Origin: Tubiluchus corallicola
Taxonomy: Eukaryota; Priapulida; Priapulimorpha; Priapulimorphida; Tubiluchidae
NCBI GenBank assembly: GCA_030141605.1
Contig: JAQGDQ010000395.1
Location: forward strand, 31,001 to 95,000
Direction of reading: 5' to 3'
Length of the DNA stretch: 64,000 nt
Below are positions 34,401 to 37,400 of the stretch, in pieces. A model generated the notes under the pieces. That model searched no databases. It saw nothing but the letters and a program-made list of their open reading frames with translations, and was not told the DNA's origin. The translations under genes were made by a program, and so were the position numbers. Position 1 is the first letter of the stretch, and each line of letters opens with the position of its first letter.

Positions 34401-37400
34401 TGCAGAGAACAATAATACGAAAAAGGTACGTTCAGTTAGGTTTTCGAGGGCATTTCTTTGTTTGTTTTTCATTCTTCACACCGCGCGCACAGTAAATGGT
34501 AAAATTTATTTTAAATATGCACACTAATTAGATTTTTCATACCTAAACTGTCACCAAAAACCTGAAAATGTTACATATTTGCACAAAGATCTAGCTTAAA
34601 CAGGTCGGGATTTGGTAGTCAACTTACGTCATACGGTAGCGGCAATATTGAATTTTGTGAAAACGGTACTTTAGAGGTCGCTTGTCTGTTTTTCTAATTC
34701 TTGTGTTCATGTCTAACGACATGCCAAATTGCAAAAACGAGGCAGAAAATAGACAATTGTTGAAATTTATGGCATACGTCCACCCGGTCACAAGTGAAAA
34801 CTGATGTTGTAATAATGAAATATTACAGAGGATGTCACAGAAATTGGTAAGAGGTGTTCACAAGATCAGTACAGTAAAATACATTGAAAAGCTACTGCAT
34901 GAAATCGACAATAACCACGCGTTTGTTTCAGGTATGATGAGACTCTGGCGTCGAAAATTGAAGTTTGTTAGTGCTTATCTTTACTATTGTTGTGGAGATC
35001 CAGTAGAATTAAATAGAATATTGTAGAATGTTCTATAGTATTGTAGAACAATCTTCTTACCTTGTAGAATGTTCTATAGTATAGTAGAACAATCTTCTTA
35101 CCTAGTAGAATGTTTTATAGTATTGTAGAACAATCTTCTTACCCTGTAGAATGTTCTATAGTATTGTAGAACAACCTTCTTACCCTGTAGAATGTTCTAT
35201 AGTATTGTAGAACAATCTTCTTACCCTGTAGAATGTTCTATAGTATTGAACAATCTTCTTACCCTGTAGAATGTTCTATAGTATTGTAGAACAATCTTCT
35301 TACCCTGTAGAATGTTCTATAGTATAGTAGAACAATCTTCTTACCTAGTAGAATGTTCTATAGTATAGTAGAACAATCTTCTTACCTTGTAGAATGTTCT
35401 ATAGTATAGTAGAACAATATTCTTACCTAGTAGAATGTTCTATAGTATAGTAGAACAATCTTCTTACCTAATAGAATGTTCTATAGTATTGTAGAACAAT
35501 CTTCTTACCTTGTAGAATGTTCTATAGTATAGTAGAACAATCTTCTTACCTTGTAGAATGTTCTATAGTACAGTAGAACAATCTTCTTACCTCTGTAGAA
35601 TGTTCTATAGTATAGTAGAACAATATTCTTACCTAGTAGAATGTTCTATAGTATAGTAGAACAATCTTCTTACCTAATAGAATGTTCTATAGTATAGTAG
35701 AACAATCTTCTTACCTAGTAGAATGTTCTATAGTACAGTAGAACAATCTTCTTACCTTGTAGAAGTTTCTAGAACTTTCTATTTCTAGATTATTCCCTGG
35801 CACTGATATATAAGGTGGAGCTGGCTGCTGAAGTTTATTCTCTTGTATCCTCGTATTCTCACATTCTCAGATACACTTTCACGTTTCCAGATTATGACAT
35901 TTAGTATAAACATTTCGCGTTCCTTCATACTTTTGTGTTGTAGAATTCTCGCATAATAAACTAGTTTAATTTGATGAAGTGTTTTCTGGTTTTCTCTACG
36001 AGCCTTTCGAGAGAAACAAAACACAACAACTATCAAAATGTAACTGATTAATCTTGAATTTAAGATCTTAATCTTTTTTTCACTCACTTTCAGAATTCGT
36101 TTCAATTGTTTTTTTCCAAGTGTGCACAAAATATCCAAGTTGCTGTTTCAGATGAAGCATGATGGTTTCGTGAATTGATCATTCCAGATTTTGCCCAAGT
36201 TAGCACATTTTCCACTCTTTCCCACAAATTATCTGATATGTTGTACAAATGTTACTATTCTTGCAAAGCAGACTTAACGTGTGCTCACCAAGAAAACAAG
36301 AATATTTTTAGATGTCTTTACAAACAAATTTCGAATTTATGTGTTACTTTTAATCTAAAGAACAAAATAATGTCAAGCACCAGGAATCCACAATCTAAAT
36401 ATTTTTCGTTTTTCAAACCTGCTTCGCAGTTTTTAATGCAAATTTTAAAATTAAGCAAGAAAAAACCAACTTTTCCCTTCGGCACGCAAAGCTAAGGACC
36501 GAACGCGGCAATTTACGCATCTTTCAAAATTAATAAAAGTACTGCAGTCTGCTAAAGTTTCCACATGTTTCATGGATACTGCTGGCTACATGTAGAAACG
36601 CTGCGTGCTGTATCAAGACTGAACACGCTGGAATAAGATTTTCCAGATACTATATCGTAAAACAGGGTGAGTTCGCCACCCGAGGGTGAGTTCGCCACCC
36701 CTTACGTAATGGCCTAGACTTTATGGAATAGACTTTGTCAAATCATTCGCCCGAAGGAACAATCCGGTTTTCAGAGTGGCTGGCAACATCAAGGCCGCCC
36801 GCGATAAGATCAGTGCACAAGACGTTCAAGCCTTCCTTGCCAACGTAGAAGTTTCTATTTGAAAACTAAAACTAGCATTTTTCACAATTTTTTCATAGGG
36901 TGGCGAACTCACCCCCAACCAGCCAATCACAACCAGTTAACTTCAGCAGCCTAGAATGGCATTAAACAGTGTTAAATTGTTACTGGCGAATTCACCCCAC
37001 AATAGTGTTTCATTCGAAAGGCAATATAAAGCTTGAACTAAGAAAATCGGTTGGGTCTCTTGCTATGGCAGGAAACGTAAAAATACCCCTAAAAAGTGGC
37101 GAACTCACCCCGTTTTACGGTACTGTACAACATAACATAAGATTTCGTTTGTTGCGCATGACTATACGAATAAACACTAATGTGTACATTTTGTAATTAT
37201 TACTAGCTACAAAGTTTAGTTCGGCTAACATACTTGAGTTTCATTTAACTTATTCAAGTATATATTATACAATATAATCATATGCTGGTCCTTTTAGGTG
37301 GTAAATTTTCCGGTCTTTCTAGTGTAAAAATTGCCTGCAGAGCTGGTAACATTCTCAATATTCAGTAGGTATAAGTGCCTGAAGGTTTTATATGATTTAT

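Follow-up and report, generated by a model that had tools for sequence, protein, structure and literature searches.

The window, by which we mean the whole 64-kb stretch of DNA analysed here, contains two LTRs of one family, a predicted gene around the first of them, a pentraxin gene and numerous minisatellites. The pentraxin gene was recognised by its domain (PF00354, E=2.7e-14), which indicates an animal, and no protein relatives of it were found; Rfam and tRNA scans gave 0 matches, as did pattern scans of viral contigs. The longer LTR (LTR1) lies within a gene that we modelled by hand as an in-frame series of exons at 32807-32987, 34367-34425, 38005-38118 and 41539 onward, the last join (38118/41539) being read by eye, and exon 1 of this predicted gene encodes a hydrophobic segment, predicted to be a membrane segment. 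A search of Pfam with three exon pieces returned 0 matches, and no database relatives of the fourth exon (41539) were found. The preliminary description had placed the LTR in sense orientation in intron 3; orientation and intronic position hold in the hand-made model, but the intron is the second coding one unless a further exon lies upstream. The features of LTR1 and its surroundings are as follows.

34426..38004, + strand: predicted intron with LTR1 in sense, between exons 34367-34425 and 38005-38118 (hand-made splice model)
34983..34987, no strand: target-site duplication, 5' copy, ACTAT, exact, 5 bp
34988..36028, + strand: LTR1, solo LTR, 1041 bp, ends TGTTGTG...CACAACA (TGTTGTGGAGAT...CAAAACACAACA)
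35005..35034, + strand: step-type heat-shock element (HSE), leader into unit 1, with GAA at 35006, 35016 and 35026 and TTC at 35031
35025..35760, + strand: array of 18 units of 41 bp (one of 38, one of 42), 17/18 with AGAATGTTCT
35761..35780, + strand: perfect four-module HSE AGAAGTTTCTAGAACTTTCT, 28 bp before TATATAAG
35807..35814, + strand: TATA box TATATAAG, putative LTR promoter
35955..35960, + strand: AATAAA polyadenylation signal, followed by a GT/T-rich stretch (by eye)
36029..36033, no strand: target-site duplication, 3' copy, ACTAT, exact

HSF binds as a trimer to three or more nGAAn modules, and several arrangements of such modules occur in the U3 of LTR1. The leader and the first unit together provide three GAA modules spaced 10 bp apart and then a TTC, a step-type HSE. 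The array that follows was reported by Tandem Repeats Finder as 18.4 copies of 41 bp at 35021-35771; its unit starts span 35025-35720, and unit 3 reads AGAATGTTTT where the other seventeen read AGAATGTTCT. The motif AGAANNTTCT is found 23 times in the window, where 1.86 occurrences are expected; 0/100 shuffles reached this count, so that chance does not explain the array motif. Beside the TATA box, the perfect GAAnnTTCnnGAAnnTTC at 35762-35779 is the sole occurrence in 64 kb, and at least one arose in 3/100 shuffles. No three-module HSE was found inside the array (35021-35771), each unit holding a two-module dyad only, with a third GAA in the same 5-bp register 20 bp past the dyad; because the 41-bp length is not divisible by 5, the units are out of register with each other. 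Each 41-bp unit is, as far as its letters tell, a separate half-site and not part of one long HSE. The U3 (34988-35806) contains 0 CpG, against 18.5 expected. The elements given in the preliminary description (TG...CA ends, ACTAT duplication, about 18 units of 41 bp, perfect HSE, TATA box and AATAAA) were confirmed, and LTR1 is, on this evidence, a genuine solo LTR with a U3 apparently built like a heat-shock promoter.

We rejected the idea that HSEs are a general trait of the minisatellites in the window, as GAAnnTTC was absent from eight of the nine others tested and present four times in one (a 2.2-copy array at 22457 was left out of this test). Another tandem array with a 41-bp unit, of different sequence, lies at 10509-12239, with about 42 units, two CGTGAC per consensus unit and 81 RCGTG; RCGTG is the core of hypoxia-response elements. 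A dispersed repeat is present at 55321-56340, 40077-40770 and 60652-61116, and the copy at 55321-56340 has expanded into 60-bp tandem units, so that tandem growth within a dispersed repeat is seen elsewhere in the window.

The second member of the family lies downstream and carries a single unit. Like the step-type HSE of the LTR1 leader, it is absent from the preliminary description.

43867..44236, - strand: LTR2, 370 bp, one unit, with HSE modules at 44209 (step), 44189 (dyad), 44139 (dyad) and 44125 (triplet)

Its R-U5 is 78% identical to that of LTR1 over 148 bp, and its flanks show no perfect target-site duplication (AAAAT versus AGAAC). The 143-bp U3 of LTR2 holds seven phased HSE modules, a number reached by 0/5000 dinucleotide shuffles, and combines a step-type with a perfect three-module site, a combination matched by 3/20,000 single-base shuffles. 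When the two LTRs were aligned piece by piece, 31/33 HSE-module columns were identical, against 53/79 other U3 columns (p=0.0016; p=0.0006-0.004 under four other gap settings). CpG numbers 10 in the LTR2 U3 (44100-44236), with 7.2 expected.

Further copies were collected from the genome of the same organism (343.5 Mb, 2344 contigs), scoring the best 40 of 1019 candidates with the 3' part of LTR1 as query, the best 40 of 303 with array units and the best 40 of 936 with LTR2. Scored copies were picked by likeness to the query, and their frequencies are therefore not genome-wide; moreover, the LTR1 3'-part query contains a piece of an additional unit, which favours multi-unit copies. For the second subfamily, 20 of the 39 places listed beyond the LTR2 of the window were fetched. 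We left out of the LTR1-type counts L001 (the LTR of the window), L002-L008 (the same loci as L009-L015), L013 (L012) and L017 (L016), as well as the duplicates L051 (L050) and L058 (L057). L077, L080 and L088 were removed from the diversity set of the second subfamily, the 3' flanks of L080 and L088 being those of L076 and L083.

Most of the listed copies have the same or nearly the same TG...CA ends. Among the 33 LTR1-type copies with both ends, LTR1 included, the target-site duplication matches at five of five positions in 19, at four in 5 and at three or fewer in 9; all 19 perfect duplications differ from one another, which implies at least 19 independent integrations (L065 and L029, which have the same duplication letters, may be one insertion). 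In the second subfamily, 10/20 copies have a perfect duplication. The genome contains one match to the 3' flank of LTR1 (36034-36480). Among the best 40 of the 1019 candidates no two LTRs on the same strand lie 4-10 kb apart, the copies seen appear to be solo, and no full-length element of the family was identified among the copies examined. At one locus (L025) two same-strand LTRs lie about 2.5 kb apart with reading frames between them, which we take to be LINE-like. A profile search for copia reverse transcriptase (RVT_2) gave three matches at two loci; at L091 a fragment of copia-type reverse transcriptase (about 1500-2095) adjoins a 32-bp match to the LTR 5' end, apparently in mid-gene, and what resembles another retroelement follows (by eye).

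Two observations concern the placement of copies. At G000:C1395:184412-185212, two family LTRs in the same direction are 45 bases apart, the second being 71% like LTR2. Thirteen matches of the LTR2 query, on contigs C2, C14, C457, C628, C1781, C1850, C2066, C2159, C2185, C2200, C2228, C2254 and C2271, score alike (354 bits, 355 bp); the LTR ends 34,674 bases from the end of C2 and starts at base 34,675 in C457, C628 and C2254, which suggests a contig-terminal segment of about 35 kb common to these contigs, either subtelomeric or an effect of the assembly.

The arrangement of HSE modules recurs across these copies. Of the 38 LTR1-type copies, 30 have a perfect HSE of three modules next to the TATA box, 29 have a run of four modules and 29 the dyad of the last unit; the step-type leader is present in 22 of the 33 copies with a 5' end (LTR1 included), in 12/20 copies of the second subfamily and in LTR2 too. 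Among 18 further distinct LTR1-type copies at least 11 have the proximal three-module HSE, a lower bound given that some ends are poorly anchored. The order dyad-dyad-triplet seen in LTR2 recurs in 17/20 copies of the second subfamily (16/18 without duplicates). The preliminary description had looked to other copies for conservation of the GAA/TTC pairs, and conserved they are, both in the last-unit dyad of the LTR1-type copies and in the order kept by the second subfamily. In a sub-lineage of five copies (L015, L024, L038, L045 and L052) the leader is cut from TGTTGTGGA to the GGAATNTTC of the unit, with loss of the step-type HSE and retention of the dyad.

Diversity within the second subfamily (18 copies, LTR2 included, mean identity 0.90) was 0.028 in the 27 HSE columns, 0.120 in the other U3 columns and 0.102 in R-U5 (p=0.0011 and p=0.0031, respectively), or about four times less variation than in the rest of U3; 0/124 circular shifts of the HSE mask reached 0.028, and unphased GAA/TTC columns had a diversity of 0.126 (p=0.004). 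With CpG columns removed the contrast was weaker, 0.032 for the HSE columns against 0.101 and 0.078 (p=0.041 and 0.047). In the young LTR1-type subfamily the HSE columns were not less variable (0.056 versus 0.071 and 0.087; p=0.77 and 0.50), and the dyad of one-unit copies has decayed as fast as the sequence around it (11/198 versus 61/1155 cells), so that inserted copies look unconstrained. Our own reading is that the HSE modules would have been constrained while the elements were active and would decay neutrally once inserted. As judged by these comparisons of sequence, the heat-shock architecture is a trait of the family.

The same cannot be said of the array, which we rejected as a defining trait of the family as few copies have two or more units. 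The preliminary description had called the U3 a satellite of heat-shock half-elements; the heat-shock design resides instead in the compact one-unit LTR and not in the array. Among the LTR1-type loci examined, seven have at least two units, with unit lengths of 41, 52 or 103 bp.

41-bp arrays: LTR1, 18 units; L028, 40 units; L009, 5 units; L032, 2 units; L050, 2 units
L048: 52-bp unit, 16.4 copies, 16 dyads; the unit takes in the LTR 5' end; target-site duplication ATCAG on both sides
L049: 103-bp unit, 5.8 copies; repeats the dyad, a second dyad and the TATA box together

The three unit types, with their different break points, indicate three or more separate amplifications of the segment, and the five 41-bp loci likely arose separately; separate origins would rest on unit length (41, 52 and 103 bp) and break points. 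An argument from private array variants was dropped, since some variants are common to several arrays or to one-unit copies: TTCCAT is common to L028, L049 and L050, and TACAGTAG to LTR1, L048, L049 and L050. CCTAGTAGAA and CCCTGTAGAA were found only in LTR1. In a tree of low support, LTR1 and L009 cluster with the one-unit copy L010. Among the loci examined, no array was found to be shared by different insertions, which argues against a spreading arrayed lineage.

Taken together, we consider it quite probable that LTR1, a solo LTR, belongs to a family of LTR retroelements present in many copies in this animal genome, that the U3 of this family is a compact heat-shock promoter, and that a dyad-bearing segment, single in most copies, was amplified in LTR1 from one unit to 18. 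Such a promoter has its perfect HSE, of three or four modules, about 10-30 bp ahead of the TATA box, with a GAATGTTC dyad and a step-type HSE farther upstream. On stress, HSF trimers would bind the proximal HSE and transcription would begin some 30 bp past the TATA box, the element presumably being copied whenever the host activates HSF. The dyad and the proximal HSE supply TTGTAGAA at both ends of the segment, and slippage or unequal exchange between these repeats could add a 41-bp unit, and with it one dyad, at each event. Gap- and step-type HSEs act more weakly, and two contiguous modules are enough in vitro, according to the accessible text of PMC4552642. The extra dyads would most likely be weak auxiliary sites beside the strong proximal HSE, which would do the main work.

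Whether the number of dyads means anything is a separate question. The array is rather likely to be an ordinary minisatellite, in which dyads multiply passively within a slippage-prone segment and their number has no function. In 30/52 one-unit copies the 8-bp TTGTAGAA, itself part of the HSEs, occurs both at the unit start and where the proximal HSE begins, the two occurrences being exactly 41 bp apart, and this bracketing moved our estimate for passive slippage slightly upwards. The same reading is favoured by the richness of the window in minisatellites, those tested being almost all devoid of GAAnnTTC (8/9, the other with 4), by a unit number or unit length of its own at every array-bearing insertion, and by core columns that are not significantly less variable in four arrays (1/24 variable versus 21/132 elsewhere, p=0.11). 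Against it, segments of 52 and 103 bp with other break points were amplified too, each with a GAAnnTTC dyad, and dyads are intact in 77/78 array units versus 25/33 single units (units shorter than 41 bp left out; L019 cut by a contig end), although homogenisation alone suffices for this difference and recent homogenisation may lie behind it. Passive growth bears in any case on the array only, and not on the conserved promoter. The opposite proposal, that the array multiplies functional HSF sites through cooperative recruitment, so that long copies would act as stronger heat-induced promoters or enhancers and would be maintained by selection, either on the element or on the host, we regard as possible but doubtful. 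It draws on the intact dyads (17/18 in LTR1, 40 in the 40 units of L028), on the third GAA, which lies within the unit 20 bp further along and keeps the 5-bp register, and on the cooperative HSF binding described in the accessible text of PMC4552642. It has to contend with the lack of an array common to two insertions among the loci examined, with the degenerate proximal HSE of L028, where the longest array accompanies loss of the good site, with the same p=0.11 for core conservation, and with units that are out of register with each other, 41 bp not being a multiple of 5.

TGTTCT and AGAACA are also steroid-receptor half-sites, of which the LTR1 array has 34, and the U3 could be taken for a hormone-response array like that of MMTV. 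The full palindrome RGWACAnnnTGTWCY is absent from both LTRs and from the ten arrays tested, and we rejected the steroid-receptor reading on this ground; what is left of its probability is very small. The AGAACA in the second half of the unit has no counterpart in the second subfamily, which keeps the phased 5-bp GAA/TTC modules, although some leaders of that subfamily do read AGAACA, and a perfect HSE beside the TATA box does not fit a hormone-response array.

Within the heat-shock promoter reading, LTR1 could act in its host intron as a transcription start induced by stress or as a poly(A) site that ends transcripts prematurely. That it affects the host gene, either through LTR-started transcripts spliced into the exon at 38005 or through the AATAAA ending transcripts early under stress, we think unlikely, and premature ends would be as plausible as new starts. 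The sense orientation in a predicted intron and the presence of both TATA box and AATAAA would allow it, and donor-like GTGAGT sequences are available downstream of LTR1 at 36667 and 36686, within a perfect 19-bp duplication (36664-36700) that doubles the sequence AGG/GTGAGT. On the other hand, the gene model is a hand-made prediction, its three exon pieces having no Pfam match and its fourth exon no relatives, a transcript started in the LTR would need to read through the poly(A) site of the LTR itself, and its product would be devoid of the membrane segment predicted for exon 1. A broader proposal is more doubtful still: that stress-responsive satellite DNA arises repeatedly from an HSF-driven LTR family. 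On this view the HSE modules would supply the bracketing repeats and every slippage would contribute an HSF half-site, the segment would be favoured or destabilised by cooperative binding or by HSF-driven transcription, and solo LTRs would become graded heat-responsive enhancers or HSF sinks, of up to 40 units, inside and between genes.

If HSF drives the family, scores of solo LTRs (the best 40 in each of three overlapping searches, from about 300 to 1000 candidates) would be candidate heat-shock promoters in an animal genome, and the natural copies with 1, 2, 5, 18 and 40 units would form a dose series for HSF half-site number. Heat-responsive mobile elements as such have already been shown, in the accessible texts, for plants (ONSEN) and for nematode Helitrons. 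A literature search confined to titles and the openings of abstracts, covering few subscription papers, returned no LTR family of animals that has an HSE core promoter, nor one with amplified HSE arrays in U3.

Other systems share single aspects of the family described here. The BII boxes of Tnt1 are tandemly repeated. Tnt1 is a stress-induced LTR element of tobacco with factor-binding boxes in its promoter (PMC3316501, accessible text), but it is a plant element, responds to defence-induced factors instead of HSF and has a different repeat. The human satellite III is a tandem repeat with putative HSEs that is transcribed on heat in an HSF1-dependent manner (accessible text of PMC9032817), and is a pericentric satellite whereas the array here belongs to an LTR. 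In Cryptococcus, the LTRs of TCN3 and TCN12 have one or two putative HSEs, proposed as the cause of mobilisation at 37 C (PMC12810828); these are fungal elements with few sites, and the accessible part of that text mentions neither arrays nor a conservation test.

By analogy, the family may work like ONSEN and parallel the HSE-bearing Helitrons. In Caenorhabditis, Helitrons have spread HSEs, eight HelitronY4_CE copies carrying more than 100, with support from HSF-1 ChIP (PMC6927752, accessible text). As here, transposable elements carry HSEs in an animal genome, many of them in some copies; the Helitrons, however, are DNA transposons in which a three-module motif was counted, whereas the present elements are LTRs with an HSE at the core promoter and arrays of dyads. 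ONSEN (ATCOPIA78) of Arabidopsis has nGAAn heat-responsive elements in its LTR, which HSFA2 binds to drive transcription on heat, a new ONSEN insertion has turned a neighbouring gene heat-responsive, and the ONSEN promoter is free of CG sites (accessible text of PMC3907296). The likeness lies in an LTR retroelement with nGAAn modules in its LTR, and extends to the lack of CpG in the U3 of LTR1 but not in that of LTR2. ONSEN is a plant copia element on which the experiments have been done, while the family described here is an animal one, known from sequence alone, that has arrays in some of its copies.
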